A stretch of 64,000 bases of DNA. It comes from Phorcus lineatus (Eukaryota; Mollusca; Gastropoda; Trochida; Trochidae). The notes beneath the pieces are model-generated. The model saw nothing but the letters and a program-made list of their open reading frames with translations, was not told the origin of the DNA and searched no databases. Both the position numbers and the translations under genes were made by a program. The stretch is taken from positions 24,715,997 through 24,779,996 of the forward strand of contig OV121082.1 of assembly GCA_921293015.1 (NCBI GenBank), in the 5' to 3' direction. Shown one piece after another: positions 16,401 to 64,000 of this stretch (the stretch's first letter is position 1; the number at the start of each line of letters is the position of its first letter).

Positions 16401-19400
16401 CATTCATCTATAAATGGTGTTTTAATCTGTTGTTTATGCACTCGGACTCTCGCCCTTAATGTATCCCCCGTTTGACCAATATACTCTTCGCAACAACCAG
16501 CGCATGTTATTACATATATTAGATTTCTGGAGGCGCAAGACATATTTTCCATTATTTTGAATTTTGAATTATTCCTAAAGGTAAATGAATATAACTCCAA
16601 AATGTGTGTCAAATTAAAAAACCCCAAATGCATCAAAAGTTTGCAACATCTAAATATACATCGCTGTCTTGTTGGTGGGATTGAAAATTACACTGTAAAG
16701 ATTTAATTTAATTCATAATAACCTTCTAAAACAAAATGTTATGGATAAGATGGCTTTAGAAGTCTCTTGTTACCAGCTTCAGGTTGTTGAGGATGATAGT
16801 GAACATGTAATTACCGAAATTCATCTCAGTTTTTATTTTGCATTCATCATGATGTACATGTACTTGCCTGGTGGGGAATTTTCCACGACGTTTAGAATTA
16901 AACGTTTGCGATCGAATTTCAGCTTCCCGTCCCCTGTAAAAACGGTAATATCAGACGAAGATTAAGATGGGAATACTTAACTTTGTATCTAAATATATTT
17001 CCTTCTGTATTTGTACGTTCACATTTCATAGTTAAATTAATTTTAGAAACTTAAAATGTTTGAAAGATGTATTTCCTTGTCAATCAAGTATTTAAACAGA
17101 AATAAATAAATATTAATATTCATTCTCATTGATTATAAAATATTTAAAAATGATCAAAAATGTAAAATAGAGAGATGGTTACCTTGTAGGACGTTGATAG
17201 TTACAGATGCAGTAGCTGTCATTGATGGCTGCCCATTATCCTGGTAAAATAATTTCAACAGATACACTTCTTAGTTCTACCGGCCGGGTTAAAAGAACTT
17301 ATCATGGTTAGAATTATCGATGTTTGAAGTTTCATCATAAAGACATACTTTTGTAAACATAATTTACATTTCAACGTCATATATACTTATTCTTACACAT
17401 ACACGAAATGTATATGAAACAGTAAAAGATAGCGAGGTTTGCATGTCATAATATTTATCAAATTATTAATAGAAGTGACGATTCATACTTGTGCAGTAAC
17501 CACCAGGTTGATTTGCTGTCCTCCGAAATTCTCTAAAGAGTCGTTAGTCATTAAAACACCAGTGTCTCTCTCTAGTTTGAATCGTGATTTACCGTTTGAA
17601 CTTTCCTGAAATGAATGAATAATTAATGAATTACAAACGAACAAACACATGGATGAATAAAGATAGATAGCAGAATAAAATTTCTCTAGCCACTGATTTG
17701 TGGCATATAAATTGAAATTAAATTCCCAATTTTATCTGCAGTTGTAAAAATGTAAAAACAGATCAATTTAATCTTAAAAAGGCTTTGGTATTGCAATTTT
17801 ACGTTTTCTATGTAAATTGATAAATCAAAATAAGCCCTTCTCAGCTATAAATCATCAACTAATAAAGGACAAAAACACTACACCCAACGGCAAAAGGAAT
17901 ATCACCAAATAAAATGCAAGAGAGTTTAATCCACCAGCGATGCATACAACTAATATAAACTTTTATTCAGAAGCCAACAATCGTTATTCATGAATTTAAA
18001 ACATTATTTCATCATCTTTCTTTCAAAAACACGCGTTTAGAAAAATGTCGTTTTGAAATCTCCTTAATTAGTCGAGATGGGTAACTGAAATAGAACTGTT
18101 TGTTTTGTTTCAGATGCATGATGCCGCAACAATAAAAGTACAAGAAGGGGCATTATAATGATAACATATTTTATTTACTTACTACTTATACTTTATAAAT
18201 TTTAAAATGTTATTTAGGTTATACATTTGATAGTCAATACCCTGATAATCAAACTTCTTCCTTCCTATTCATAAAGCATAGGCTTATCAATTACATTCAA
18301 AATCAACTTTAACTGACAGATGTATTCTGTTTTTAACTCTAAAACAATTACTTTATGCATGGGCTTCTTTCCCGTTATATACAAATAAAAAACAAATAAT
18401 AGAGAATATCTTACCAGAACTCTGTATGTTATTTCGCTGTTTTTCCCAGCATCAGCATCGGTTGCGTTTAATGTTAGTAATTGCGTGAAAGGGATTGAAT
18501 CCTGGGAATAATGAAATAAAAGATACATAATAAACACATTGTCTCACCTTTTCAAACAATTGGCGACTTCTTAATTATCTTAAAGGTTAACATCTATAAT
18601 TATTATGAGTGTTTCCACAATGAATGGTAATACATTTCGTTTACAAAATTTAACAACACAAATTTTTATAAAGAATCGACCATCCATAAGCGAAAAGTTA
18701 CGGTTGTGTAAAGATAATTAAAAAGAAAAAAACCCACAAAGGCTTTGAAATCTAGATGTATTTGAAATATTATCCAGTGAGTGTTTTTGTGAGTTATATG
18801 TATAAACCGTCACAATCTTGATATACTTAGTCTCTCTATAAAGCGATCGTAACATATTTACAGAAACTTTCCTATCTGCTGTTCAGCTTTATTTTAATGT
18901 GAGTATAACGTCTTGCCGAAGTGCAAACCGGATTCTTGGTGTCCTGGTGAAAAATTCTGAGATGAATGTCTAAAGGCATTCAACCCGTGATATGATATGA
19001 TATGATAGATACCTTTAGTTTAATCCTAGAAATAAAAAAAAAGTGATGATGATTTAGCAATATTGACATTATTCAATTATATCCATCAGTAAGGTGAATC
19101 AAATGGTTTATCGACCTCGGAATAGTTAAAGATCTTTTCTTGGACCATTTTCAGACCATTTTCAGTTAAGTCACGTACGGAACTACTTTTTATGAGTAAT
19201 ATTTTTGGCGAGATTAAAATTCTGACAAAAAATTTCGATGGAAAATACAACATAACACAAATATGAATTTCATTACATGTAAGGAAAGATTTTACGAATT
19301 AGAAAACCTTTCGGGTCATTACGCAATGTAGCATATACACTACACCCTCGTCAAAATTGCTTTCTACATCTTATTCTTTCAAGTTTCCTTGTCCAAATTA

Positions 19401-26700: not shown

Positions 26701-29700
26701 ACTAAGAAAATGATAATAAGGTAAAAAAACATGAAACTTATCACACGATGTTGGGAAGACGACCAAAGTTTCAAATTCATTGAATGATTTAAAAAGACTT
26801 CGTTATATTTAAATTTTTTAAAATTTACTACAATCTATTTTGATTTAAAATAACTATATTAATTCTAACCAAACGTACAAATGTATAAACGTAATTCAAA
26901 CAAGTGTGCGATAATCACTAGATATTCCGTGAATTTTCTTAATATATTCGGTTGAGCATATTTCGGCTTTTTAACTAGACAATTTTCTACAAATTAAACT
27001 TACTGATTTATTTTTTAACAGTAATTCAGGATTTTCTTTTACAAAACTAGCACTGAACATTTTATCAAGGTAATTCTCTTTCTATTTATCTTTCAATCTC
27101 TCAATGAATGAGTTAACATTGCTACATACTGTATTCACAGCGAGCTCCCGAATATCCTGCTCTACACAGACATTGGCTTGTGGCTGCTCTGATACAAGTT
27201 CCCCCGTTATAACACGGAACTGTGTCGCTGCAGCTTCCGGTGAAATTTCCTAAATAAAAATAGACAATTCTTAAGCAGAAAGGACATGACATTGCTTCTT
27301 ATTCAATGTTTTATATTTGTATTAAAAAGTTATTTAAAATTCAAACATATAAGTAGTTTTGAGTGTTAAAAACTAAAGAAAAAGGGCATTATCGATCTAC
27401 CATTCTAACATGTAATAAAATGTGATCAGGGAATGAGAGATATACATTGCAATGTATTTAAGAGAAATGCTGTAAAAGCATATGGTTATAACTGCTGAAC
27501 TGTTTTAAGGATGTTCTCAAATTAGAATTTTCATGCTGAAAGATCACCGTGTCAAGGACAGCAGGAATGATGAATTTGGGTAAAAACGAAACTCGATCGG
27601 ATAATGTTATTCGTACATCGATTCATTATTTCTTAATAAAGCTATTATGTTTCAAAAGGACTGTATAATAACATGTGCTTAATTTTATTGTAAAAACTTA
27701 CATTTTATTATTATCATATGATTTTTTATCATAACCCAAGGAAATCTGTCATATGACTTATACGAAAGAATGTAAACTTTTACATTACCTAAGCGAGAAT
27801 GAGGGTCATACACACATTTGCACGAGTTTCGTAAAAGGAATATGACACACTTCCAAGTGAGGTAATTGTTTTTTACCATTTATGATCCATCTAAAATGCT
27901 TTTAAATGTTCCTCCTAGCGGCCAGTTACAATAACATTACAAGAAATGATTTTATAATGTCACAAACTAAGAAATATTCTAACTAGCGCTCAATTAAGCG
28001 TTACTAGACTAGAGTGTTTGTGCACATGTGATCCTATTGAAAATATGTCAGCAGCTCTAATAAACCTAATTGGTAATGAAATTAATTGTCTCCATTTTCT
28101 GCCAAACGAAATAGCTTCTTTTAGTTTTCAAATGATTTAAGATTGAATTGAAATACATACTATGTTCACAACGACGCCCGTAGTTTTCTGGCTTGCAGAA
28201 ACAGCTGTTGGTTCCGTTGCTCATTTTGAGGCATGTACCACCATTGGCGCAGGGATTTGTGCTGTTGCAGACACCTGTACTGTTTCCTGAAGCGGTAAAA
28301 TATTTAAAGAAACGAAATACACACTCCCTTACAAGGGCATGTTATCAAGTTAACATATAAAATAGCCCATTCACAAGATTTCATAATATCGACATTACAA
28401 TGTATTTAATGATAATGATGATCTGATTCGGCAATAAACGTCTGTAAGAAACGCACTACTCGTTATAAAACATGTATCAAAACCACACATTTTGAGTAGT
28501 GGAAAATTCTCTGCCAACAGAGGTAGCTCCGTCATAAAATCCTATACAACCTCTGTCTAAATACGATGTTTTCTTGGTCTAGAAATGTAGAACGCTGATT
28601 GGATGCAATCAAGAATAGTTGTGCAATCAGCGACGCCGTTTCTAAATTTATCATCTAAATTGCCTAAGTTATTTCCGTAAGCTCTTTGCACTTTTAGTCG
28701 TCTTTGCGGAACCCAACGTCTCATTTTGCGACTGTAACATTGCACAGGCCTGCGTGACAACAAATATGTTATTCGCTCATTCGGTATGTGTCATCAGAAG
28801 GTCCTCCCCAACCCCAATCACCTCTGTACAAGGTACCCATTCTCTGATGGATTAACTGATTTTTTCATTTTGAATTAAAACAAAAAACATGAAAGTCATC
28901 ACAGAAAACTAAGACAACCCACGTTATGTTTTGGGTTGATGGTAATCCTTAGTGGAATTTGCTGTATGTCCAGAGATAAAGATGGAAAGTTATTCTCTGA
29001 ATTCACAGTAGGTTCCGTAGAATTCTTGACTACAGAAACATTGATAATTGCCGGTGCTCGTTCTGAGGCAGGATGCACCGTTCTTGCATGTATTACTTCT
29101 ACAGTCCACTTTCTCTGTAGAAAAGCAACTTATATTTCCAAATGGTGGATAGAATTAAAAAGTTAGGTTGAACATAAACTTGGAGTATAATGGAAGGAGT
29201 TCGTCTCAGGGCGTGATAATGGCACTAACTGATCTTCAACAATAAAAAACGTCCTAGCTAGATATTAATCAATTGATAGGCAAATGTATTTTTTTAAAAG
29301 ACAGATTTTAAGAATGTACTTAAGAAGCTGTATAACCATTTATATATTAATTGCTATACAGTAATTTATTTCACAAATATGCAGTCAAAAGATTCATCAA
29401 CGATATTCAAGCTTTCCATATTCTGTTTGAAGCGTTTGAACACGTTTATTGATTTGAAAACTATTCAAGTAATTCGCATTGATAGCCAGACATACGGTAT
29501 TGACATCGATTGCCATAGGTTGTAGTAGGACAGAGACAAATATTGGTTCCATTTTGAGCAGTGTAACAGCTTCCACCATTCTCACAAGGGGCTGTTCTGT
29601 TGCAGACACCAGTGCTGTTTCCTAGAGAAAACACGGAAAGGAAAAGCTTATTTAATTCGAAACCATTTATTTTCAAATTTGTTTATCAGATGCATTGTTA

Positions 29701-32700
29701 AAAGTTCACAAATGATTTTACTTCCAATATTTTTTCTGTCGAAAATATAATACTCTTGAATATCATGTTCACAACGACGCCAATAGTTTTCTGGCTTGCA
29801 GAAACATCTTTTAGCGGTGTTGCTCATTTTGAGGCTTGAACCACCATTGCAGCAAGGACTGATGCTGTTACAGAGGCTTGTACTATTTCCTGAAGCGGAC
29901 ATTGTTTCGTTAAAGAGACGTATTACACTTATAATGGAAAATCTTTTAACTAAGTTGACCATTGAAAATATTTTTTGTATAGTGACATTGCAATGTAGTT
30001 AATGATATTAGTGATCTGTTTCGGCAATAAACTTTTGTTCATAATACAACATTTATTAAAACGAACTTTTTGTTCAGCGGAACCGGTATATCAATTTTCA
30101 CTAGAGGATGTTCTGCTTCGGGCACTTGCTTTATTTCCTTAATGGTTTAAACCAAGTTATTTATCGATTTATCTGTTCACAGTCATTTTTGACCGAACTG
30201 GTATTTGTTTGCTTTAATGAATGAAACATTTGACATTTACGACCTTTGATGACAGTATATACTATTAAATCATTTTGTCACTAATTAATTGATATACAAC
30301 TTTATGTTGCTAAATGTTATTCTCTCGTTGTAACAATGTCCATACAGTCATTTGATATTTTTCAAATAAACCATCTGTCATATAGATTTGGAATGTTTCA
30401 GTAATCTATATTAGCACCTTTCATTAGTAATAGTTTGGATATTTGGATTTAAAATCTCGGTCTAACCAAAACTAACATATCATTCCCTAATCACTTCTGT
30501 GTAAGGAACCCACACCCTTGCGGATGAACAGATGCGCATTTTGAATTGAAAAAAAAACAAAACATGAAAAGTTATCACAAGACACTTTTAAAACCCACGT
30601 AATTTTGTGGATTGATGGTAATCCTTTTGAAATTTGCTGTATGTCCAGAGATAAGGTTGGAAAGTTACTCACTGAATTCACAGTAGGTTCAGTAGGTTCA
30701 GTAAGTTAGAAAATACAAATTACGAAAAATAATTCAAACCCTGTATTTGAATAATTCTTTTGTAATTCTTTAACACATGTGTTGCCATATAAGGGTTATC
30801 TATACATATTTTGCCTATTATTGATATCATGTGACAATGTGAAATTTGCACTTATAATTGGGAAAAGATACTCGTATTACAATCTTACTGTATTCACAAC
30901 GCCTTCCATAAGTTCCATCTTGACACTGACATAGTTTTGATCCATTTTGAGCAGCATAACACGAACCGCCATTCAAACATGGCATGGTAGCGTTGCAGGA
31001 ATTGTTATCTAGAGACGAAAACGGGATAAAACACACATATACTGGGACCTATAAGTGTTGGATATGTGCTTTTTTTAAAATTGATAAATTATCTTTGTGT
31101 CGATAAATAGAAAGATCCTCGTTTGTAATATTATCTGTGTGTTAATAACTTTGTCGAGTATACATCTACGATGTTTTGGATGAAATGAAAAGAAATGAAA
31201 CATGCTCATATCAGAAAAATAATTATGAATATTGATACTTGAAAAAATCATAAAGAATTGTGTTTTCACACTTAGGTCACATTATTGATGTTATGATACT
31301 CAAAATTTTACAATGTAGTTATACCATTTGGCATGAATTACATGTTTACGTCAAAGTCTTAATTGGGAATTACTTCCCTTGTATATGTGTACATATTGAG
31401 CAGTGTCTTCTTACTTGTTATCTTCATTCTAACACAAAATTGGAGTAATCGATGAAATGGTATACAATGCAATAATTAATTTTGAGGTTTCCATGATTGG
31501 AGTAATCGATGAAATGGTATACAATGCAATAATTAATTTTGAGGTTTCCATGATTGGAGTAATCGATGAAATGGTATACAATGCAATAATTAATTTTGAG
31601 GTTTCCATGATTGGAGTAATCGATGAAATGGTATACAATGCACTAATTAATTTTGAGGTTTCAATGATTGGAGTAATCGATGAAATGGTATACAATGCAC
31701 TAATTAATTTTGAGGTTTCCGTGACATGTTGGGTGATAAGTTATTCAAACGTATACAAATTTACAAACCTGGGTCATCAGGGAATATTGTTGGAGGTAGG
31801 TTCTTGTATACTGAAATAGATAACATATGCCTTTAGATTTTCTAGTGTATGTCGAAAGCTGGCTTTTCAAAATGATAATGCTTGAAAATAAATAAAAAAT
31901 TCTGTGTGATTGATACATGGTGAATAGATAATAACATATTTGTACATATTGCATATCTTTCGTTAAGCAGAAATGTATACAGTTATACATACAGGCATTA
32001 TTAAAGAATATTTTCTTGTTAAACTGTATTTTTAAAATTTATAATTTCTATATAGCCATTTCTTAAAAGGATTATATGTTTCAAATATTTTTGTCGAATG
32101 TCGAATGTCTACCTGTGAAGGTTTATTACCTAAAGTATGATTTCAGAACAATTCTATCATTTCAAGCAAGTTATAGATTATAGGAAATAGCAATACCTAA
32201 CTGCAGATATAAAACAATAATTTTGGTGAGGATTTTGGATCAACTATACGTTTTCTTAAAACACAAACTGCATTAAAATGTTCAAGAATATAGTTATCGA
32301 ATAGGTTAATTTTTAATAATCCTTTTTACCTGTTTCAAAAAGAAGACAGAACAACCGAAATCTAGTCAAGCCTGCTGTTGTGGGGGTTTGCTTTGAATAA
32401 ACCTGGAATTGAAACAAGATTAACATGGAGAGTAAGGAATGTCAAGAAAAGGAAAACGAATCTTACTTATTCACACAATACTTTTTAATCAACAAAAGGA
32501 ATTGATAAAATGTATTGCTCGGATAAATGACAAGCTTTGTATATCTCAAGTGAAATAAATAATCCTGAAAATAATATCTTGAGAAGAAAATATTTAGAAT
32601 TATTTTTAAAATGGAATATCGAAATATCGAATAAATGCAACTTACATCACAAAGAGACTGTGTGAAAAGAGCTAGATTAGAAGCAACTGTCTCCACGTTT

Positions 32701-40879: not shown

Positions 40880-43100
40880 AATAATTATCGACAGTGTAGA
40901 TCGTACCATGCATATTATTCACTTTGGTCGAATTATGCAGTGCACTGGAGAGGCAATGTAGACCATACCATGTTCATTTGCGACAATTCATTCTGTATTT
41001 TCAAATCAATTTCATCTTACCATGCATAATATTTGACTTGGACACGCTATACAGTTACCGTACGAGCATTTAAACTAAACAGACATCGTAGATCCTACCA
41101 TTCATAGTATTCGACTTGGAAAGGATATGAAGTTGCTAAACAGGCATTGTAGATCCTACCATGATAGTATTCAACATGGAAAGGATATGAAGATGCTAAA
41201 CAGGCATTGTAGATCCTACCATTCATAGTATTCGACATGGAAAGGATATGAAGTTGCTAAACAGGCATTGCATATCCTACCATTCATAGTATTTGACTTG
41301 GAAAGGATATGAAGTTGCTAAACAGGCATTGTAGATCCTACCATTCGTAGAATTCGACTTGGAAAGGATATGAAGATGCTAAACAGGCATTGTAGATCCT
41401 ACCATTCATAGTATTCAACATGGAAAGGATATGAAGATGCTAAACAGGCATTGTAGATCCTACCATGATAGTATTCAACATGGAAAGGATATGAAGATGC
41501 TAAACAGGCATTGTAGATCCTACCATGATAGTATTCAACATGGAAAGGATATGAAGATGCTAAACAGGCATTGTAGATCCTACCATTCATAGTATTCGAC
41601 ATGGAAAGGATATGAAGTTGCTAAACAGGCATTGCATATCCTACCATTCATAGTATTCGACTTGGAAAGGATATGAAGATGCTAAACAGGCATTGTAGAT
41701 CCTACCATTCATAGTATTCGACATGGAAAGGATATGAAGATGCTAAACAGGCATTGTAGATCCTACCATGATAGTATTCGACATGGAAAGGATATGAAGT
41801 TGCTAAACAGGCATTGTAGATCCTACCATGATAGTATTCGACATGGAAAGGATATGAAGTTGCTAAACAGGCATTGTAGGTCCTACCATTCATAGTATTC
41901 GACATGGAAAGGATATGAAGATGCTAAACAGGCATTGTAGATCCTACCATTCATAGTATTCGACATGGAAAGGATATGAAGTTGCTAAACAGGCATTGTA
42001 GATCCTACCATTCATAGTATTCGACATGGAAAGGATATGAAGTTGCTAAACAGGCATTGTAGATCCTACCATTCATAGTATTCGACATGGAAAGGATATG
42101 AAGATGCTAAACAGGCATTGTAGATCCTACCATGATAGTATTCGACATGGAAAGGATATGAAGTTGCTAAACAGGCATCGTAGATCCTACCATTCATAGT
42201 ATTCGACTTGGAAAGGATATGAAGATGCTAAACAGGCATTGTAGATCCTACCATGATATTATTCAACATGGAAAGGATATGAAGATGCTAAACAGGCATT
42301 GTAGATCCTACCATGATAGTATTCAACATGGAAAGGATATGAAGATGCTAAACAGGCATTGTAGATCCTACCATGATAGTATTCGACATGGAAAGGATAT
42401 GAAGTTGCTAAACAGGCATTGTAGATCCTACCATTATAGTATTCGACATGGAAAGGATATGAAGTTGCTAAACAGGCATTGTAGATCCTACCATGATAGT
42501 ATTCGACATGGAAAGGATATGAAGTTGCTAAACAGGCATTGTAGGTCCTACCATTCATAGTATTCGACATGGAAAGGATATGAAGATGCTAAACAGGCAT
42601 TGTAGATCCTACCATTCATAGTATTCGACATGGAAAGGATATGAAGTTGCTAAACAGGCATTGTAGATCCTACCATTCATAGTATTCGACATGGAAAGGA
42701 TATGAAGTTGCTAAACAGGCATTGTAGATCCTACCATTCATAGTATTCGACATGGAAAGGATATGAAGATGCTAAACAGGCATTGTAGATCCTACTATGA
42801 TAGTATTCGACTTGGAAAGGATATGAAGTTGCTAAACAGGCATTGTAGATCCTACCATTCATAGTATTCGACTTGGAAAGGATTTGAAGTTGCTAAACAG
42901 GCATTGCATATCCTACCATGATAGTATTCGCATTTAAAACATTATGAAGTAACACTACAGGCAGTGAACTACATGGTATTTAATTTGAACACATAAAACA
43001 GTAGATCTAACCATAAATAATAATCAATTTGGTCATATATGGATATACGATTACTGTACAGAGTAACACTTGTAGGTAGTATACAATTAGGACAAGTGTA
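40880..43100. repeat. 60/61-bp tandem array, about 30 copies, with diverged fringes
   Basis: The core array (about 41,085-42,935) has units reading GGAAAGGATATGAAGTTGCT AAACAGGCATTG then GATCCTACCA. Two variants occur: 61 bp with CCATTCATAG and 60 bp with CCATGATAG. Blocks of several units are themselves repeated, which suggests unequal exchange. More diverged units occur at 40,880-41,085, 42,935-43,100 and probably 40,140-40,230. ORFs across it on both strands arise from the 60-bp units and are not genes. Confidence 0.9.
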
Positions 43101-47131: not shown

Positions 47132-49529
47132 CAGGAGGGGCGACGGGTTGAATTCCCTCAACGCTGAATAGAATGAGAGAGTAAATAAACGTGTGGTTAA
47201 GCGACTAGTACTTTAAACATAGAGCTTTTAGTGCGGCGTGTATCGGGTCTCTCAAAGTACGTTGAATGTGAAGAATCATGTCTAAAACCGTAAGGTATAC
47301 TGAATATGAACATACTGTAAATATACTAGTATAGAATATTGGAAGTAAACATATGATGAATACATATTGTATGTGTGTATTATACGTAGAGAAACATTCG
47401 GACAACGGTGTTTTTAAAGATTAAGCTTAGAGTGCACTGGTGTTTTATATTAAATATTAAGTTATGATCAATTGCGGAAGGGAAGGGAAGGGAAACTGGC
47501 TACTCGCTTGCATTGCAGTTCTATGAAATTATTTTTATGTAACTAAAACTAATCTAATATCATGTATATTAGTTAGACGGTTTTTGAAAGTGTGTACAGA
47601 TCTTTAAGATATATTTCATATGATGATATTTCATATTTCTTTATGAAATTGTCCTCCGTAAGTTATACGTTCACGTTGTAGAACACTCTGTTCAAGTTCT
47701 TTATTCACTAAGACCAATCTCAGTGGTACATAGTACGTTCTTATATAATCATTAATACATTTTTACAACGATGATATGGCCACTTATTAATATTTACAAT
47801 CAGCTTTGTGATTAATTACTGCTATAAATACAGGAATAATAGACAAGTTAAATCTGCTCACTGGGTGGAATATTTACAGGATAATACACTGATTGAGTAA
47901 TCGATATTTTGTAATGACTGATAACATATATTTTGACGGGACAATACAATATTTTGTCTTAACTGATTTCTTATTTGTCGGGACTGAACGCTTTCCCCCC
48001 CATACACTAACTATGATACAAACTCAGCGTATTTCAAAACAATAACAACGCGATACGGTGTTCAAAGGATAATCCTTTCGGGGATAAAAGAGATACACAC
48101 TCTTGAAGATGAAACGAAAGGAACCGAAGCCATTCACCATAAACTATTAGTAAATGTATTATTATTCTAACCATACATACACTAATTTTCTTAAATGTTG
48201 TAAATTTAGAAAATGTACCTTTTCTCGTGTCATTTTCCCGAAAACAAAATGGCGGATTGGATGCCGATAGGTCAGTCTCTTTAAGGCAGTTATCTAGTGA
48301 GACAACTCTGCCTTAAAACTTTCCTCTTTTATGTTGTATATATATTTATATATATTTCTGGTGCATGGACTGACACAAACAAAATTAACAATTGTAGATT
48401 TGTTAATGATGATCTGAACAACAATATTTTACCTGCAATTTGTAACAAGTAGGAAATTATGATCAATGTTACCCTGCCTTTCACCTATATCTTCAAACAT
48501 TTTACAAAATGTACAAGAGATGATAAGCTCTTAAGATTTTCAATTCAGGTTTATCTTAACATTGTGTATACTATAAATGAGCTTCTGAAAATGAAATTGA
48601 TAGATAGAGACATATGTACATTTTGTCCATGTTTTTATTTCCTGTGACCTAGTATACATACAAGAACTATTATTAGAAACATTTTTTACATTATAGTAGT
48701 TCTTTCTGGCTTCACACTTCTACTGGGCCGACTCTGACTATATGATGTTGTCAATAATATTATTCTTGCTTGTAAAAGTATTCATAACAGAGATTTAACT
48801 GCATGATGATCTAGAGTCTTGAAAGAAATACAATACATTCTACTTGTTGAAAAGTATCAAGCCAGAAAAAACACAGAATTGTGAGTTTCCAGATTGATTG
48901 TATACTTAAAAAGCATAGGGCCTTCTCTTTCTACTAATGATTGTACTGTTTGCCTTTAACCTGAATTGCCTGAATGCATATTGCTCTCTGTATTTCATGC
49001 TCTATGATGCTACAGAAATTCTACACCCACCTGAAATGAATTGATTTGAAATATAATCAACACTCCATCAAACATTAAAGTCGACCTACTTGTATTGGTA
49101 ACTGTAAACTTCGATTAACAAAAATGCAACTTAAAAGCCAAATAAAATGGCGTAAGTATTTTGATGAAAAAATAACTCATGTTAGAGTGGATCTGTAACT
49201 CAAGGATAAAATTTATATTCTTTTGCTTACAGTTTATAAGGAATTATATTTGTATGTTTCTTTATGTTTATTTCTGACATTTATCTAAAGTTATATTCAT
49301 TTTCATAAAAAACCCATTCATGAGTATCATCTTCTGTCTGAACGGGTGTTCTAATGAGTCTCGTGTCCTTTGCTCTCTTCGTGCTCTTCAGAGTTATGAT
49401 TCACTGACTATCAAATACTTACAATGGCAGTTAAATTAGGCATATAACGGATTTATAAGGCAGTGTGAAGTTGGTTACTTATTCCTTATTCCTTATTCGA
49501 TATTCAAATTTTCCATTTACTTATTCGAA

Positions 49530-51832
49530 AATGTCTTCTGAGGGTACCAAGGAGTGGTTGTACCACCTTGTACCTATACTCAAATGAAAGATAATTCAAT
49601 GACCTATCCAATGAGGTATAATACATTTTAATACATAGAGGCGGTCGTACCGTAAAGTCACGATAAGCGTTACTGTGTCAAAATAATAATAAACAACTTC
49701 TGAGGGTATCAAGGAATGTTTGTACCACCTTGTACCCATACTCAAATGAAAGATAATTTAATTACCTATCAAATGAGGTATGATACGTTATATTACATAG
49801 AGGCGGTCATACCGTAAAGCCACAAAATGCGTTACTATTTACCCAAAATGTTAAACAACAACTTCTGAGAGTATCAAGGAATATTTGTACCACCTTGTAC
49901 CCATACTCAAATGAAAGATAATTTAATGACCTATCCAAGGAGGTATGATACGTTATATTACATAGAGGCGGTCATACCGTAATATCACAATAAGCGTTAC
50001 CATTTACCCAAAATGTTAAACAACAACTTCTCAGAGTATCAAGGAATATTTGTACCACCTTGTACCTATACTCAAATGAAAGATAATTCAATGACCTATC
50101 CAATGAGGTATAATACATTTTAATACATAGAGGCGGTCGTACCGTAAAGTCACGATAAGCGTTACTGTGTCAAAATAATAATAAACAACTTCTGAGGGTA
50201 TCAAGGAATATTTGTACCACCTTGTACCCATACTCAAATGAAAGATAATTTAATTACCTATCAAATGAGGTATAATACGTTATATTACATAGAGGCGGTC
50301 ATACCGTAAAGCCACAAAATGCGTTACCATTTACCCAAAATGTTAAACAACAACTTCTGAGAGTATCAAGGAATATTTGTACCACCTTGTACCCATACTC
50401 AAATGAAAGATAATTTAATGACCTATCCAATGAGGTATGATACGTTATATTACATAGAGGCGGTCATACCGTAATATCACAATAAGCGTTACCATTTACC
50501 AAAAATGTTAAACAACAACTTCTGAGAGTATCAAGGAATATTTGTACCACCTTGTACCTATACTCAAATGAAAGATAATTCAATGACCTATCCAATGAGG
50601 TATAATACATTTTAATACATAGAGGCGGTCGTACCGTAAAGTCACGATAAGCGTTACTGTGTCAAAATAATAATAAACAACTTCTGAGGGTATCAAGGAA
50701 TATTTGTACCACCTTGTACCCATACTCAAATGAAAGATAATTTAATGACCTATCCAATGAGGTATGATACGTTATATTACATAGAGGCGGTCATACCGTA
50801 AAGCCACAAAATGCGTTAATATTTACCCAAAATGTTAAACAACAACTTCTGAGAGTATCAAGGAATATTTGTACCACCTTGTACCCATACTCAAATGAAA
50901 GATAATTTAATGACATATCCAATGAGGTATGATACGTTATATTACATAGAGGCGGTCAGACCGTAATATCACAATAAGCGTTACCATTTACCCAAAATGT
51001 TAAACAACAACTTCTCAGAGTATCAAGGAATATTTGTACCACCTTGTACCTATACTCAAATGAAAGATAATTCAATGACCTATCCAATGAGGTATAATAC
51101 ATTTTAATACATAGAGGCGGTCGTACCGTAAGGTCACGATAAGCGTTACTGTGTCAAAATAATAATAAACAACTTCTGAGGGTATCAAGGAATATTTGTA
51201 CCACCTTGTACCCATACTCAAATGAAAGATAATTTAATGACCTATCCAATGAGGTATGATACGTTATATTACATAGAGGCGGTCATACCGTAAAGCCACA
51301 AAATGCGTTAATATTTACCCAAAATGTTAAACAACAACTTCTGAGAGTATCAAGGAATATTTGTACCACCTTGTACCCATACTCAAATGAAAGATAATTT
51401 AATGACATATCCAATGAGGTATGATACGTTATATTACATAGAGGCGGTCAGACCGTAATATCACAATAAGCGTTACCATTTACCCAAAATGTTAAACAAC
51501 AACTTCTCAGAGTATCAAGGAATATTTGTACCACCTTGTACCTATACTCAAATGAAAGATAATTCAATGACCTATCCAATGAGGTATAATACGTTATATT
51601 ACATAGAGGCGGTCATACCGTAATATCACAATAAGCGTTACCATTTACCCAAAATGTTAAACAACAACTTCTCAGAGTATCAAGGAATATTTGTACCACC
51701 TTGTACCCATACTCAAATGAAAGATAATTCAATGACCTATCCAATGAGGTATAATACGTTATATTACATAGAGGCGGTCATACCGTAATATCACAATAAG
51801 CGTTACCATTTAACCAAAATGTTAAACAACAA
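49530..51832 (+). repeat. Left terminal array: ~164-bp tandem units in trimer order
   Basis: About 14 units, each with TTTGTACCACCTTGTACC, CAAATGAAAGATAATT and TACATAGAGGCGGTC. Three variants recur in order: one ending GTGTCAAAATAATAATAAAC, one with AAAGCCACAAAATGCG, and one with AATATCACAATAAGCG. The higher-order period is therefore about 490 bp. Unit starts lie near 49,530, 49,697, 49,861, 50,026, 50,188 and so on to 51,667. The last two units are both of the third type. Confidence 0.9.
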
Positions 51833-52267
51833 CTTCATGAAGTGACATCACACATCATGTGACACATGATGCTGATGACTGGAAATGTGATGTAGTTATA
51901 AGTAAGTAATATTTGAATTTGTATAGTTGGATTAAAATAAGCATCTTAGTAATATGATCTTATTTAAAGATGATTTACAGAATCTACTTGATATCTATTA
52001 TTCTGGAGAGTTCCGTCATCATGCTAAGTTCTAACAAGTAATTACTTGACATGCTATCTCAATTTGCCAATATCGAGACGTGTGATCCTTTTTGGGTCAT
52101 TGGGGCAGGTTGAGACAGTGATAACGGGGTAGATTGGGACAATTTCCCAATGTGCATTGTTACATTTTGACGGCGTCCCCATGGCCTTATTCTCATGAAT
52201 GTATCTGAATATATGTATATAAAATAATTAAAGTCCAAATCGTAATAAATAATATGATAAACAATAA

Positions 52268-52549
52268 CCAGTAATATCTTCAGGAGTGCATTTCAAGGGT
52301 TTCATGCTAACGGGGGCTCCTGCTGGTTCTAGAGGAACTGCACACACTACTGGATTAATGACCACAAATATTTTCAGTGAGTGAGTTGACCACTTTGTTG
52401 ACCACGGAAAGTGTAGTGTTGATAATAAGGTGCTACTTCTGTTCGACGACAACCAGGAGCCATGTATCCCATTGCAGTCAAAAACTACAGCATCTTGACA
52501 AAATGCGTACAGCCCCTTCATTAAATTCTATAATCAGAGTAAAAATGCT
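52268..52549 (+). pseudogene. pogo/Tigger-type transposase fragment (DDE_1 domain), broken
   Basis: Read on the plus strand, the frame gives VHFKGFMLTGAPAGSRGTAH, then TTGLMTTNIFSE, a stop, VDHFVDHGKCSVDNKVLLLF, DDNQEPCIPLQ, and after a gap YSPFIKFYNQSKNA. This follows the DDE_1 catalytic domain of Tigger/jerky-like transposases (LTGAPPGS...GWM...HF...NKVLLLLDNHESHISI...GPFKTYYNQ). Two stops are present, and about 30 residues around the TFPPHTSHKLQPLD region are deleted. It is a dead scrap inside the foldback element, absent from its relative at 60-64 kb, and not that element's own transposase. Confidence 0.8.
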
Positions 52550-52860
52550 TAGCAATAAGACCATGCAGGGGTCACAATGACAATATTTTATATCACAGAA
52601 TTACCGGGAACATCATATCCCAGGATATTTACGAGTTAGGAAATTTCTTTAAATTTACTACCTACGAGGGCAATCATATGGAAGTTCATATTTTTCAAAC
52701 GATGCCCAAGGGCAACATATCACTTTTTCATTGTGACGTCGCGTCATATACAATGTTTTGACGTCTCAGTTCGCCTATGACATATGCTCGGAGGTCGATT
52801 TTGGTAACTTCCTTTCATTTCGACTTCGGTAATAAACAGAATATCATATTCGTACCGTGG

Positions 52861-52926
52861 CCATGACATACTATGTTAACGACACTAATATTTAGTCATT
52901 CGTGTCGTAAACATAGTATGTCATGG
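52861..52926. repeat. Hairpin with 25-bp arms
   Basis: CCATGACATACTATGTT at 52,861 and its inverse ending at 52,926 pair over 25 bp with one mismatch, around a loop of about 15 bases. It lies within the centre of the foldback element. Confidence 0.85.
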
Positions 52927-53039
52927 ACACTCACATACTATCCTCTATATAATGACATGTACACCGACTTGATCGAAATATGTTCGGTGAAGAGGAACTT
53001 CTTTTGTCACAGATAAACCTGAAACCACTGTAACTTGGA

Positions 53040-53350
53040 CCTCGAAACCATTCTGCCCCACACATGGAAGCACATACCAAAGATGCACACCATGGACTAT
53101 CAGATACAAGCAACAGATATGCACACATGGGTCATCAGAAGCACCCAAGATTCACACATGGGCCACCTGTTATACCAAAGATGCACACATACGACCGCAA
53201 GTAACAATCACCCAATATGAACACATTGAATCATCAAAGCACCAAAGATGGACACATGGGACAACCAAATACAAGCACCCTAGATACACACATGTCACAC
53301 ATGTAACCACAGGTTACAAGCATCTAAGATGCACACATAGGCCACCTGTA
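53040..53350. repeat. Degenerate ~35-40-bp minisatellite (AAGATGCACACATGGG type)
   Basis: About eight imperfect units of the form CCAAGATGCACACATGGG plus a variable CATCAGATACAAGCAC part. A homologous array lies at 61,320-61,635 in the related element, so it belongs to the element family. Confidence 0.8.
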
Positions 53351-56101
53351 ATTTACTATTTAAAAATGGCGCCACGTTTGCCAACATTAATTATTAAAGG
53401 TAGATCCAAATTTTGAATGATCCCACATTTGACTAGGGTACGACAACATTTTCTTTATCCGCGCAACAGAAAAGTGAATTAACGGGTATATATTCTTAAA
53501 TTTGTATTGTAAATTCTTAGAACTTCATGTCTTCTGAACGAGGACATCAACACCAACAAAACGGGTTTGAAACTGTTAACCAAAAAAATTAATGGTTTAG
53601 TGTGATTTTTAATAAATGTTTTGCCAAACACACAATTTTCAGAGAACCTTTACTCCAATTTCTAAAATCTATATTTTCAGTTTAATCTAGATTGACAATC
53701 TAGACCCCATTTCATGCTTAGCTGTTCTGATAATCTATCTTTCTAAAACAATTAAAGTTTCACCAGTAAGACACTATCATATCATCAGTATTAAAGAAGT
53801 ACAAAATATTAAAAACCTCTTGACAAATGAATATTTTCGAACGTTCAATTCCTGTAAGTTTGCAATTCAACAACAGAGAGAAAAAAAGAAAATATTTGAA
53901 GCACATGTCTCTAAGACGCCGCCTATTTTGTCAAAATAATGAGATTGAGTTTTAGAAATATTTTTTTAACTAGATACTGTAGAACAAAAATATCATATTA
54001 CTATTGTGCTGTATCCAGCAGGGAACCTACCTTGAGACTCAGTTGTTTTATCACAAAAACTTGCCAACCTCTTGTTAAGTATGAATGTTAAAGGTTGCCA
54101 ACAATATTACGTTATTGCTCTATAATGATTAACGTATGTTTCTTGCCTTTCTTGTTGAGTGGTAAAGCTAGTATCCTAGGCCATTTAATGGATAATTTCC
54201 TGTTGTTCAAAACAATATTTAACGTAACATGTAAAATTGGTATGAGTTTGGATTTACCACATATGATCATTTCTGTAGGTCTTGCATAATGACCTTGCGC
54301 TTTGACGTCTATCAGATTATTAATGGCATAAATTACTTCATTTTGTTTCATTTACCGTTTCAGTTCACGGTATTGTTTATGGTCTCATCATTTTTACAGG
54401 CACAACAGATAAATATATCACACTCTGCTAGAAATGAACATTCTTCTCTAACATGGCTTTGGTCAATATTGTTATGACTTATGTTCGTAACGTTTTGATA
54501 GTGATTGACTCTATGATTCTCTGTGATTTAAAGTTGCTGATGTATCAATTACCAGACGTTTAATTTGGTACAAAAACTTTTTTTTAATTCGATGACATCA
54601 GATCAATAACAATTTTCTCGTAACTACTGAATTTAGTGTGACATTGTCGACGAAATGAGTTAGTTAGATTTATGAAATTCTGTCAATATTGACCTCAAAG
54701 TTAGATTCTAAAACAATCTCATTAGGTAAAGTTCTACATTCAACATCATAGCTAGCGCTAGTGAAAAGTTTCCAAAACGTTGCTTGTTACATTAATCTTC
54801 AGATGACATTATACATAGTACCGCATATACCACATCATTGATATTTTCATAGAGGTCACTTTTTTTCTTAATTCCACATGCTTCAAGAGAAGTATTTTAA
54901 CTTTCGATCAAGACTGATTTTTCGGTTACTTCTTCAATCTATACATTGCCAACGACTGCACAATCTTGACATTCGATTAACATTAAGGATCTATTTCATA
55001 TTAAAGTTTTTTTTGTCAGGTTGAACAGTGTTTGCAGATATAAGAACCGTAAACATCTTAAGTAATTATATCGATACATTTTATAAACGTAATTCATGTA
55101 AAACATCCAAATTTCATAGTCGAAAAGATTTTGCTGTGACAGCAATATTTGATAAGAAGAGATGGGTGTCAACATTTACTGACAATCGACTCATTACTGA
55201 AAATAAAGAAACATGAAAGAAAGACTTTAGTTAGTGCAACCCCAATGAGCACAAATAGTTACCCGGAAACGTCTCTTTTATTGAACAGGACACTGAGGTT
55301 CCATTTTGTTCTGATAATGCAATTGTCAGAAGAGTTTTGAAATTTGGAAGCACCAAATGTTCTCAGATTGCCTACATTACAAAGACAGAATTAAAGAAGT
55401 GGTTATGTTGCAAAACCTTCTGCCAGGTGTATATGTTGTCGTTGTGAAGGATGTAATCGCTTTGGTTTCCTATTAAGGTCCGTCATCAAAATAAATCGAA
55501 TATATATTGGAGGTCTGTTTCTGACTCATTAAAAACATTGCTCAAAATAATCAACCCTTTTAAATGTCTAGGATCACTTTTGATTGATGAGGTAATCGGA
55601 TAAACACAGGCACATTAACATAAAAATATGATAAGATGTTCCATTCAAAGATTTGGGGAATTTTGAGGCTTCAGAGTTTCGTTTTTTTAATGTTTAGGGT
55701 GACTTCGTCTATGTATTATAACGAGACCAATTTCATTATAAAAACAGTTAAAATATCGCTTGTTTTTTGGTATACTTAGAAGGTGTTATCAGTATTGCTT
55801 GGTTGTCTCTGAAGTTTTTTTTCTGACCACAAGTAACATTATGGTCACATATAAGTTTTGTTTTATTTAACGGGATTACCGCCACAATGTACCATGATAC
55901 AACATACATCTTAGGATAGATAAACGTATTATTTTTTATTTGAGTAAACATCAAGATTTAGAAAAATTCCTTGGCAACCTCAAAAATTGTTGTTCCATTG
56001 TGAAAATAAAAACTTGTACATCCATAAAATATTCTTGTTGTTCCAGATACAACAAAAAGTGATTTTGACTACTACTCTATGCGTTGTAACGTTACACACC
56101 T

Positions 56102-56116
56102 CTTTTTTTCTTTTCT

Positions 56117-56147
<31 letters not shown>

Positions 56148-56159
56148 GGGGCGGGGGGG
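56102..56159. repeat. T-run followed by a 33-bp G-run
   Basis: A T-rich tract (56,102-56,126) is followed by 25 G, one C and seven G. Such a run can form quadruplex DNA and is also prone to sequencing length error. Confidence 0.9.
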
Positions 56160-57062
56160 AAGAGATTAAAATATCTGTATTAACATACCCTTACATGGTG
56201 CTCTGTACCATCTGGTCAAATATAACTATGAACTGATTCATTTGAAATTTTATGGCGTTTAAAGGATGACCGCCTCTATTTGTAGTTATTAATTAAATTG
56301 TAGTAATTAATTGGATATAGATGCATAATCCTTCGAATGAGTACTAATACATCTTTACATTGTGATACAAATGTCTCTTTTCATCTTTAGACTATATTAC
56401 TGCCGACACTGCAGAAAATTTTACTTCCTTTGTTGAGGTCTTTAACCTTTTACGGTATGACTGCTTCAATTGTTTTCTATGTTTATATTTTATTTGAATA
56501 CCCTTACATGGTGGTACTTTTATTGTTTTGTACCCTCACAAGTCGTCATTTCCGTCAAGTTAACTCTAAAGTAAGCCCTGTTCTATGGACTCAAGGGTAT
56601 GGCTGCCTCAATGTATTACATCTGACTTAATAGAAAATTTGAATCTTACAGGTGGATACCGTTATAGGGTACAAATGTACAAAGATTCTTTTGTGAGCAA
56701 GACATTGTTACTTCCGAAAATTCAGAAAAAAACATAGTACTGTTTACTATTATTATATACAAGTAAAAATACAATAACTGAGCAAAAAAGGAATAGGTTA
56801 TAAATTTATCTCTGAGTCGAGAATACTTACACTGTGGTTCAAATACACCTTGGTACCTAAGAAGTAGTCCAGAAACGTTCTGTGAGATGAGTAATGAAGT
56901 TGCCATCCATAACATTGTCGTGTAGTAATACACCCACTTCTTAATGCATTTGAAGAATTTCCGCTTGGGTACTGATTCACGGTTTAACATTTTGAGTACA
57001 CAGTAACGATTTTTGTTCTCTGACGTTAAGTATGTCTCTATATATTAAAACTTATTATTCCT

Positions 57063-58450
57063 CATTTTATAGGTTATTGAATTATCTTTCATTTGAGTAT
57101 GGGTACAAGGTGGTACAAATATTCCTTGTTACTCTCAGAAGTTGTTGTTTAACATTTTGGGTAAATGGTAACGCTTATTGTGATATTACGGTATGACCGC
57201 CTCTATGTAATATAACGTATCATACCTCCTTGGATAGGTCATTAAATTATCTTTCATTTGAGTATGGGTACAAGGTGGTACAAATATTCCTTGATACTCT
57301 CAGAAGTTGTTGTCTAACATTTTGGGTAAATAGTAACGCATTTTGTGGCTTTACGGTACGACCGCCTCTATGTATTAAAATGTATTATACCTCATTGGAT
57401 AGGTCATTGAATTATCTTTCATTTGAGTATAGGTACAAGGTGGTACAAATATTCCTTGATACTCTGAGAAGTTGTTGTTTAACATTTTGGGTAAATGGTA
57501 ACGCTTATTGTGATATTACGGTATGACCGCCTCTATGTAATATAACGTATCATACCTCCTTGGATAGGTCATTAAATTATCTTTCATTTGAGTATGGGTA
57601 CAAGGTGGTACAAATATTCCTTGATACTCTCAGAAGTTGTTGTCTAACATTTTGGGTAAATAGTAACGCATTTTGTGGCTTTACGGTACGACCGCCTCTA
57701 TGTATTAAAATGTATTATACCTCATTGGATAGGTCATTGAATTATCTTTCATTTGAGTATAGGTACAAGGTGGTACAAATATTCCTTGATACTCTGAGAA
57801 GTTGTTGTTTAACATTTTGGGTAAATAGTAACGCTTATTGTGATATTACGGTATGACCGCCTCTATGTAATATAACGTATTATACCTCATTGGATAGGTC
57901 ATTAAATTATCTTTCATTTGAGTATAGGTACAAGGTGGTACAAATATTCCTTGATACTCTGAGAAGTTGTTGTTTAACATTTTGGGTAAATGGTAACGCT
58001 TATTGTGATATTACGGTATGACCGCCTCTATGTAATATAACGTATCATACCTCCTTGGATAGGTCATTAAATTATCTTTCATTTGAGTATGGGTACAAGG
58101 TGGTACAAATATTCCTTGATACTCTGAGAAGTTGTTGTATAACATTTTGGGTAAATAGTAACGCATTTTGTGGCTTTACGGTATGACCGCCTCTATGTAA
58201 TATAACGTATCATACCTCATTTGATAGGTAATTAAATTATCTTTCATTTGAGTATGGGTACAAGGTGGTACAAACATTTCTTGATATCCTCAGAAGTTGT
58301 TTATTATTATTTTGACACAGTAACGCTTATCGTGACTTTACGGTACGACCGCCTCTATGTATTAAAATGTATTATACCTCATTGGATAGGTCATTGAATT
58401 ATCTTTCATTTGAGTATAGGTACAAGGTGGTACAACCACTCCTTGGTACC
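57063..58450 (-). repeat. Right terminal array: same ~164-bp units, inverted
   Basis: Eight full units and one partial unit in reverse orientation, of the same variants as on the left. Toward the interior (about 55,850-57,060) badly diverged units can still be recognised by phrases such as GACCGCCTCTAT and CTTTCATTTGAGTA, so the array is oldest toward the middle of the element. Confidence 0.9.
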
Positions 58451-58543
58451 CTCAGAAGACATTTTCGAATAAGTAAGTGGAAAATTTGAATATCGAATAA
58501 GGAATAAGGAATAAGTAACCAACTTCACACTGCCGATTTATAA

Positions 58544-60093: not shown

Positions 60094-61319
60094 GGCAGTG
60101 TGAAGTTGGTTACTTATTCCTTATTCCTTATTCGATATTCAACTTTTTCATTTACACAGTCTTCCGAGGGTACCAAGGAAAGTTTGTACCACCTTGTATC
60201 TATACTCAAAGGAAAGACAATTCAATTATCTATCCAATAAAATATACCACGTTTTAATACAAAGAGGCATTTGTACCGTAAAGTCACAATAAGCGTTACT
60301 GTGTACAAATGATGATAAACGACTTCTAAGAATATCATGGAATATCTGTACCACCTTGTACCTATATACTCAAATGAAAGATAATTTTATTACCTATCCA
60401 ATGAGGTATAATACGTTTTAATACATAGAGGCGGTCGTACCGCAATATCACAAAAAGCGTTACTATGTACCAATTTATTTTAGTTGTGTTATTCTTGTTC
60501 AAATACAAACTCCTTGGAGTATCAAGAAATACATGTACCACCTTGTACTTATACTGAAATGAAAGATGATTTAATTACGTATCCAATCAGGTATAATACG
60601 TTATAATACATAGAGGCGGTCGTACCGTGATATCACAAAAAGCGTAACTATGTACCAACTATTTTAGTTGTATTATTCTTGTTCGAACACAACATTTTTA
60701 GAGTACCAAGGAATATTTGTACCACCTTGTATCAAACTCAAGTGAAAGATGCTTTTGTTACCTATCTAATGAGGTATACTACGTTATAATACATAGAGGC
60801 AGTCGTACCGTAAAGTAACAATAAGCGTTGCTATTTACCAAAAATGATAAACAACAACTATTAAAGTACCAAGGAATATTTGTACCACCTTGTGCTTATA
60901 CTCAAATGAAAGATAATTTAATTACCTATCTAATGAGATATGATATGTTATGATACATAGAGGCGGTCGTAAAGTCACAATAAACGTTACTATTTACTCA
61001 AAAATGACAAACAACAACTTCTATGTCTAGATATATTGATATAATATAGTATATAATAATATTTGAATTTCTGTTGTTGGATTAAAATTTTAGCATTTTA
61101 ATGCTATGATCTTATGTAAAGATCATATACAGAACCTAGTTGATACCTATTTTTCTGTAGAGTTCCCTCATCATGCTAAGTTTTAACAAGTAATTACTTG
61201 ACATGCCAATATCGAGACATGTGATCCTGTTATGGGTCATCAGGAAAGGGTGAGACAGTGATAACGGGGTTGATTGGGACAGTTTCCCAATGGGCACATT
61301 GCATTTTGACAGCGTCTCA

Positions 61320-61635
61320 GTGCAACCAAGGTGCTCACATAGGCAAGGCCAAAGATGCACAAATAGGACCACTAGTTACATACACCCAATATGAATACAT
61401 TAAAACATCAAAGCACACAACATGGACACATGGGACAACCAAATACAAGCACCCAAGATACACACATGTCACCATCAGAAGCACCCAAGAAGCACACATA
61501 GCACCACAAGTGACAAGCATCTAAGATGCACACATGGGCCACATGTAGCAACCCGAAGCGCCCAAGATGTACACATAGGACATCCAGTTACCAGCACCCA
61601 ATAAGCACACATCGGACCATCAAAAGCACCCAACA
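61320..61635. repeat. Degenerate ~35-40-bp minisatellite, second copy
   Basis: Units of CCAAGATGCACACATAGG(AC/C) type, aligned in order with the array at 53,040-53,350. ORFs on both strands here are by-products. Confidence 0.8.
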
Positions 61636-62224: not shown

Positions 62225-62446
62225 GCAGCTACTTAGCGCTAAGCACGACCGTATAGGTCCGTACATCCCTCTTTTCAGGTACCCATTTTAACGGCTGGGT
62301 GGACTGAGTGCAATGTGGATGAAGAGCCCTGCCTACGGACACAACACAGTTTTGGACACAGTCACAACTTGTTGGTGTATCCAATGTGATTCGAATCCGA
62401 GTCGTCGGCGTGAGAGGCCAGCACGCTAACCACTCCACGATGTCAC
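62225..62446 (-). mobile_element. tRNA-derived SINE
   Basis: The minus strand begins GTGACATCGTGGAGTGGTTA, then an A-box-like TAGCGTGCTGG (62,418-62,428) and a B-box-like GGATTCGAATC (62,388-62,398), about 30 bp apart as in tRNA genes. The body contains CAGTCCACCCAGCCG and AAAATGGGTACCTG, typical of invertebrate tRNA-SINEs. The corresponding place in the first element (about 55,260) has no such insert, so it arrived after the two elements split. The 3' limit is approximate. Confidence 0.75.
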
Positions 62447-64000
62447 CGGGAAACGTCTCCTTTACTGAACAGGACGCTGAGGTTCTATTTTGTTCTGATA
62501 ATGCAATTGTCAGAAGAGTTTTGAAATTTAGAAGCCCCTTAGGTTCTCAGATTGCTTATATTGCAAAGACAGAATTAAATGTTGATGTTGCAGGACCTTC
62601 TTCCAGGTTTATATGTTCGTTGAATGATGAAATCGTTTTGGTTTCCTGTCTTTACATCATAGTCCGTCATCAACATAAATCGAATACATATTGAGGGTCT
62701 ATTTCTGATTCTTTAAAAATATTCCTCAAAATAGTCAATCCTTTAAAAGGTCTAGAATCACTCTTGATTGATGAGTTAATCGGATAAATATAGGTCCATT
62801 AAAATAAAAATATGATAAGATGTTCCATTCAAAGATTTGGGGAATTTTGAGGCTACATAGTTTCGTTTTCTTAATGTTGGGGGATGACTTCTTCTATGTA
62901 TTAAAACGAGACCAATATCATTATAAAGGCAGTTACACTATCGATTGTTATGGTATACTTTGAAGGTGTTATCAATATTGTTTGGTTGCCTCTGGTTGTT
63001 ATCTTAACCCAACAAACATTATGGTGACATATAAATTTTGTTTTATTTTACGGAATTACCGCCTCAGTGTAACATGATAAAACATTTATATTCGGATAGA
63101 CAAACGTAGTGTTTTTCATTTGAGTTAACATCAAGATTGTTGAAAAAGTCCTTGGTAACCTCAAAAATTGGTGTTCCAATTGTGAAAATAAAGAAACTGT
63201 ACATCCATAAAATATTCTTGTAGTTCCAGTTGGCGTATACAGCATAACCGCTTCTATTTGTAATTACGTTACATAATCAAATTGATATAGAATCAAATTA
63301 TCTTTCAAATGAGTACCAATAAATTCTTACATTGCAGTACAAATGTTACTTTTGCTCTTCAGACAATATTACTGCCGACAAAATTTTACTTTCTTTGTGT
63401 AGGTCTTTAACCTTAAACTGTATGACTGCTTCTATTGTTTTCTATGTTTATCTTTTATTCGAGTACAGTAAGCCCTGTTCTATGGACTTAACGGTACGAC
63501 CGCCTCTATGTATTATAACGTATTATACCACACCGGATAGGTAATAAAATTATCTTTCATTTATTTATAGGTACAAGGTGGTACATGTGTTTCTTGATAC
63601 TCCAAGGAGTTGGTATTCGAACAAGAATAACACAACAAAATAAGTTGGTACATAGTTACGCTTTTTGTGATATCACGGTACGACCGCCTCTATGTATATT
63701 ATAACGTATTATACATCATTGGATAGGTTATAAAATTATCTTTCATTTGAGTATAAGTACAAGGTGGTACAAATATTCCTTGATACTCTAAGAAGTTGTT
63801 GTTTATCATTTTTGGTAGATAGTAACGCTTATTGTGAATTTACGGTAAAACCGCCTTTATCTATTATAACGTATTATACCTCATTGGATAGGTAATGAAA
63901 TTATCTTTCATTTGAGTATAAGTACACGGTGGTACAGATATTCCATGATATTCATTTGTACACAGTAACGCTTATTGTGACTTTACGGTACAAACACCTC

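Follow-up and report, generated by a model that had tools for sequence, protein, structure and literature searches.

A window of 64,000 nucleotides from the gastropod Phorcus lineatus (NCBI GenBank assembly GCA_921293015.1, contig OV121082.1, positions 24,715,997 to 24,779,996 of the forward strand) contains a transposable element of 9,076 bp that is almost certainly a non-autonomous foldback element. It occupies positions 49459-58534 of the window, to which all coordinates below refer. Its inverted termini are built of satellite-length tandem units, and a second, diverged member of the same family lies downstream of it.

The first element is flanked on both sides by the 9-bp sequence GATTTATAA, present on the + strand at 49450-49458 and, as an exact match, at 58535-58543. 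The two duplications directly abut the element ends, and the probability that a random pair of 9-mers from the window is equal is ~3e-5. The left outer terminal domain (49459-49534, + strand) starts with GGCAGTGTGAAGTTGGTTAC and contains a repeated TTATTCC-like 7-mer; its inverse forms the right outer terminal domain (58459-58534, - strand). The two ends, which begin GGCAGTG..., constitute a terminal inverted repeat that is perfect over the outermost 57 bp, and the outermost 665 bp of the two arms differ by 9 mismatches without any gap. A search with the 20-bp end motif, in which up to 3 mismatches were permitted, resulted in 3 sites in the window (49459+, 58515- and 60094+), all of them exact; in 100 shuffles the motif had 0 occurrences. 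The first-pass annotation, which was made from the letters of the window, had described a perfect 9-bp duplication with exact ends, and both its coordinates and its description were right. Its further claim that one unit had moved as a whole holds for an inserted unit with exact ends and a 9-bp duplication; the form in which it moved may have differed from the present 9 kb, because its arrays could have been altered once it was inserted.

Inward of the outer domains, the left arm contains an array of 14 units (49535-51836, + strand) and the right arm an array of 9 units (57036-58458, - strand). The units are 162/165 bp long, as delimited by Tandem Repeats Finder (TRF) and cut at a shared box, and in the right arm the similarity to the unit extends inward to 56982. 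Inverted arrays of more than 1 kb, with termini made of ~164-bp tandem units, had been anticipated from the letters and were recovered in both arms. The arms are ~1.5-2.4 kb long and could be aligned to each other in inverted orientation with 94% identity over 1,564 columns, a few of which lie in the duplications (blastn). The element therefore has the long inverted termini of tandem repeats by which foldback elements are defined. Within the 64-kb window, the 165-bp units were located by blastn solely in the two elements, so that the first-pass suggestion that the element can seed or spread a satellite family is a hypothesis.

Comparison of the units by an identity matrix, which included 28 units (14 left and 9 right units of the first copy and 5 of the second copy, the remaining units of which were missed by the matrix anchor), showed that the arrays consist of three unit types, A, B and C, that differ from each other by 5-14%. 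The left array has the order ABC four times, followed by an A/C hybrid unit and a partial last unit, D. The three units of the ABC block add up to 492 bp, a period that was also reported by TRF with 97% matches, and the copies within the left array are 99-100% alike for A, 97-100% for B and 98-100% for C. From the end inward, the right array contains A, B, C, an A/C-like hybrid, an A/B hybrid, C, an A/B hybrid, C and a decayed unit, F, and its two A/B hybrids are the same A/B-like unit. Both of these hybrids carry 9 A-type followed by 15 B-type bases at the sites that are diagnostic for A versus B, and the left A/C hybrid carries 4 A-type followed by 16 C-type bases at the sites diagnostic for A versus C. 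Between the arms, the outermost A, B and C units are 99%, 99% and 100% identical, respectively. Units are thus most alike near the ends, and decay is greatest where the right arm borders on the interior. Scattered, decayed remnants of the 165-bp unit follow inward of the right array (55903-56894, - strand), with an identity of 57-77%, and 86% for one piece of 22 bp; the second copy has remnants of a similar kind. Inward of the left array, none were detected over the region examined (51837-52600).

The switches from A to B and from A to C within a unit are the expected trace that out-of-register exchange between units would leave, and the patterns of the two arrays fit unequal exchange that took place in each arm on its own. 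By such exchange each arm would be remodeled independently, with changes in arm length and in the arrangement of units. In the left arm it may have produced the three-unit higher-order repeat, and in the right arm the A/C-like and A/B hybrids. The outer units may have been kept alike either by a recent common origin, with one arm derived from the other, or by exchange between the arms. A more tentative suggestion, which we would not expect to hold, is that one ancestral set of A, B and C, inverted at both ends, diverged into a regular higher-order repeat in one arm and recombinants in the other, so that, if free 492-bp arrays exist in the genome, a higher-order satellite would have been born in a transposon end and exported from it.

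The second family member starts at 60094 on the + strand and runs to the end of the window at 64000. It consists of a left array (60161-61022, + strand), an interior (61023 to ~63484, + strand) and a right array from ~63485, of which at least 3 units are in view. This copy had gone unnoticed in the first-pass annotation, as had the higher-order repeat and the hybrid units. The similarity between the copies starts exactly at the terminal base, a G, and the first 49 bp of the left end are identical in both. The 60-bp flanks outside the two left ends have an ungapped identity of 23%, with ~28% expected from base composition, and are therefore unrelated. Thus, at the one end where this was checked, the border of the element coincides with an insertion border; ends that do not so coincide were what the first-pass annotation had named as evidence against it, and this check therefore went in its favor. 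In the 64-kb window there is one further copy that has the same left end at an unrelated flank; the same border at two places is what a mobile family predicts, and the second copy supports the existence of one. Five main blocks of the interior are common to both copies, in the same order and orientation and with a blastn identity of 77-89%. A segment of the second copy (62320-62442) did not align to the first copy and ends where the shared block at 62442 begins. Read on the - strand, it might by eye be a tRNA-derived short interspersed element; ARAGORN and Rfam gave no tRNA or Rfam match in the window.

The interior of the first element (51837-56981, + strand, 5,145 bp) is without recognizable coding capacity. 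Six-frame Pfam scans of both interiors as far as they are in view, with stop codons read as X, detected no family at the curated cut-off (best E = 0.021), in agreement with the earlier description of an element without a transposase. Neither a MULE-type DDE transposase nor DDE_Tnp_IS1595 was found in either visible interior or among the 88 open reading frames (ORFs) of at least 72 aa in the window, a set that excludes those lying wholly within the arrays at 41075-42930, 49535-51836 and 57036-58458. At E 0.01, these ORFs matched EGF (5), hEGF (3), cadherin (1), GIY-YIG (1) and, doubtfully, T2SSM_b (1), and no transposase. The longest interior block shared by the copies (55258-56046 and 62442-63229, 789 bp) contains 100 substitutions that are distributed over the three phases as 36/30/34; it therefore has no coding signal and does not look like a decayed common gene. 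Several weaker candidates were rejected. ORF 62323-62691 and the start of the shared block at 55258 have similar words in one frame and were considered as a transposase remnant, which was dismissed on the even phases and the lack of a Pfam match. The sub-threshold Pfam matches of the interiors (best E = 0.011, in ORF 53691-53936, next 0.021) belong to unrelated families and lie below the curated cut-offs, and a weak match to Transposase_21 at 29651-29998 had an E of 0.068 and a score of 12.8 bits, where 28.6 bits are required. The interior also contains a short minisatellite-like stretch (53077-53350, + strand), which is present in the second copy at 61349-61633, and a run of 33 bases that are nearly all G (56127-56159).

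Several observations weigh against this account of the element and its arms. The 9-bp duplication could be verified in the first element only, as the second copy runs past the window end, and the main shared blocks cover only 1,654 of the 5,145 bases of the first-copy interior, most of the rest being unaligned. The identity of the first 49 bp of the left end would be unlikely at the overall divergence of the copies and might be a sign of constraint; it is suggestive only, because a stretch of 51 identical bp occurs in one of the interior blocks as well. The right A/C-like unit shows the same switch as the left hybrid with one out-of-order site on each side. Unequal exchange is read from the pattern of the units, with no event directly observed, and the assembly could affect the exact unit counts. 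As to the superfamily, its assignment depends on the length of the duplication and on the layout, because no transposase was found, and the ends that begin 5'-GG together with the 9-bp duplication also agree with Merlin, in which the duplication is 8 or 9 bp.

Helitrons and Helentrons are rolling-circle elements that are not known to have target duplications or long terminal inverted repeats, so that the 9-bp duplication and the inverted arms place the present element outside this group. Bivalve Helentrons are nevertheless similar to it in that they are non-autonomous mobile elements which carry satellite-like units (PMC12628747; PMC10294476); their arrays are described from the central region (PMC12628747), whereas here they are at both ends. 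We consider it probable, with some reservation, that the element is at once a non-autonomous cut-and-paste (class II) foldback element and one moved by a Mutator-type transposase, and it is its assignment to the Mutator superfamily that we infer. A transposase encoded elsewhere in the genome would bind the outer ends and excise the unit, which would then reinsert with a 9-bp stagger, and the likely source of this enzyme would be a Mutator-type element of the Foldback, Phantom or Rehavkus group. An enzyme of this type is favored because Mutator-like elements (MULEs) are described with 8-11-bp duplications, a range that includes the 9 bp found here, and with unusually long termini (PMC6446971), because the nematode foldback family Tm1 is described with duplications of 9 bp and with a Mutator transposase that resembles Phantom (PMC3169594), and because Tetris was assigned to this superfamily on the same grounds (PMC4079207). 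Foldback elements in general are said to fall mostly in the Mutator superfamily (PMC4079207), and the combination of a 9-bp duplication with long, repetitive termini is characteristic of published Mutator/foldback elements (PMC3169594; PMC6446971; PMC4079207).

The main competitor keeps the non-autonomous foldback element and replaces the enzyme that moves it by a Merlin (IS1016-like) transposase, a reading that we regard as unlikely. The ends that begin GG and the duplication of 9 bp agree with the conserved terminal 5'-GG-3' and the 8- or 9-bp duplications reported for Merlin, some families of which have internal tandem repeats (PMC8101967). The inverted repeats described for Merlin measure 24-462 bp (PMC8101967), against arms of ~1.5-2.4 kb here, and the reported concentration of foldback elements in Mutator (PMC4079207) also speaks against it. 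No better prospects are given to the same layout in a superfamily other than these two, whether P/Galileo-like or one that was not considered, in which the foldback arms would be convergent. P-type elements usually have duplications of 7-8 bp, whereas the duplication here is exactly 9 bp. The six-frame scans of the interiors yielded no transposase domain, of whatever type, by which to judge the superfamily. Convergence of this kind does have a precedent in Galileo, a member of the P superfamily that evolved foldback-like arms and the F group of which is described with ~210-bp tandem repeats in numbers that are unequal between the arms (PMC3573991).

The remaining explanations concern the origin of the arrays. 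A pre-existing free satellite may have been captured by, or have invaded, the transposon ends, so that the repeats did not arise inside them; a unit of ~165 bp and a higher-order structure do resemble ordinary satellite DNA. However, all units that blastn detected in the 64 kb lie within the two elements, and both copies keep the position of the arrays and the inner left boundary within the unit while their interiors differ by 11-23%. The arrays are therefore at least as old as the split of the copies, and we consider the capture of a free satellite improbable to a greater degree than either change of superfamily. An artefact, by which a satellite locus was misassembled into an apparent element with inverted arms, can be dismissed with near certainty: arrays of high identity tend to collapse or to be mis-joined in assembly, but the 57-bp inverted ends, the exact duplication and a second, diverged copy of like layout would all be unexpected.

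Several known systems are close to the element. Foldback (FB/NOF) of Drosophila melanogaster has long inverted arms of tandem repeats and 9-bp duplications, as here; unlike here, its repeat units are short, and there are copies that contain the NOF coding segment. A close precedent in print for termini made of satellite units is the foldback element Tetris of Drosophila virilis (PMC4079207). As described from D. virilis and D. americana, it is likewise non-autonomous and has an outer flanking domain followed by tandem units in long inverted termini, a variable non-coding middle and 8-10-bp duplications, its transposase is reported as not found, as in our case, and its authors suggest Mutator and propose unequal exchange for the number of units (PMC4079207). 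The Tetris unit is given as ~220 bp, against 162/165 bp here, and a described Tetris copy has three or four units in its left arm, against 14 and 9 units in the arms here (PMC4079207). The 492-bp higher-order repeat in one arm and the hybrid units in the other set the element apart from Tetris as described, and the term "higher-order" is absent from the main text of the Tetris paper (PMC4079207). Tetris is reported to have given rise to free satellite arrays (PMC4079207), whereas the units described here were seen in the window only in the two elements. In the first-pass annotation the family was not recognized; for its layout, Tetris is a precedent in its published description (PMC4079207). 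The element is a further case of the Tetris-like foldback kind, with larger arrays, the 492-bp repeat and the hybrids as additional features.

The Tm1 Mutator/Foldback elements of Meloidogyne share with it a commonest duplication of 9 bp, members without coding capacity, and composite inverted termini in which the number of tandem repeats varies and differs between the ends (PMC3169594). They differ in a unit of ~14 bp against 165 bp here, in having members that bear a Phantom-like transposase, and in asymmetric 7-bp end motifs that are absent from the present element (PMC3169594). Galileo has foldback-like long termini, and in one group ~210-bp repeats are reported to change in number independently in each arm; it belongs to another superfamily (P), coding copies are known and the repeats number two or three (PMC3573991). 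No report of higher-order structure in a transposon end was found in the open-licence literature, as judged by titles and the starts of abstracts.

Within the unit, TGTACCACCTTGTAC has just 2 mismatches across 5 second-copy units that were picked via another anchor. Of the 23 units in the first copy the anchor recovered 16, and of at least 8 in view in the second copy it recovered 5 that were usable. With the anchor columns excluded, clustering of the conserved sites was not significant (P = 0.13, 10,000 permutations); the earlier values of P = 0.002 and 0.005 were biased by the anchor and are withdrawn. By analogy with Galileo, the repeats of which are reported to contain further transposase-binding sites (PMC3688188), it is a possibility that the units hold multiple transposase-binding sites.

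The element adds an animal family, absent from the literature searched, to the foldback elements whose ends consist of satellite-length units. A single element here records how units can become higher-order repeats and hybrids via unequal exchange and, on the tentative suggestion made above, its two arms would amount to a paired natural experiment on how satellites evolve. The source genome would allow a direct test of whether free satellites are derived from the ends of transposons or these ends from satellites.

Matches outside the window were few and all of them were discounted. A search of viral contigs with the outermost 16 bp of the end motif returned four matches. One contig (L003) has an exact match to the element's first 20 bp, and its best alignment to the window spans 42 bp at 83% with E = 1.4e-5, a value obtained for a contig that was picked by the same end motif. 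This match was taken as chance because it lies inside an ORF of 393 aa on a contig that is crowded with long ORFs and lacks an array. The other three agree with the end in no more than the 16 bases that were searched for. The motif of the 165-bp unit had no match in the viral contigs and one in the genome contigs, which has 22 bases in common with the window and is located on a bacterial contig with 60% G+C (L005); it was discounted because, by our own estimate, a collection this large should contain about one such match by chance. In the text of the literature, ggcagtgtgaag occurs in 2 papers that are, by title, on unrelated subjects.

The window contains further repeats and coding signals outside the elements. 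A separate tandem array at 41075-42930 has a 61-bp unit in ~30.6 copies with 95% matches, and a six-unit period of 364 bp was detected as well. At 31439-31724, a 57-bp unit is repeated 5 times with 98% matches; its length is a multiple of 3, and one reading frame stays open through the repeat (ORF 31433-31816). A 40-bp unit forms a tandem array of ~11 copies with 83% matches at 8737-9185. The EGF-like and cadherin matches among the 88 ORFs may mark exons of a gene for an animal cell-surface protein. The GIY-YIG domain is encoded at 16274-16687 on the - strand (24.6 bits against a cut-off of 22.6) and is perhaps the end of a Penelope-like retroelement. Finally, a pair of dispersed repeats with 75% identity (blastn) is located outside both elements, at 15180-15479 and 28516-28783.

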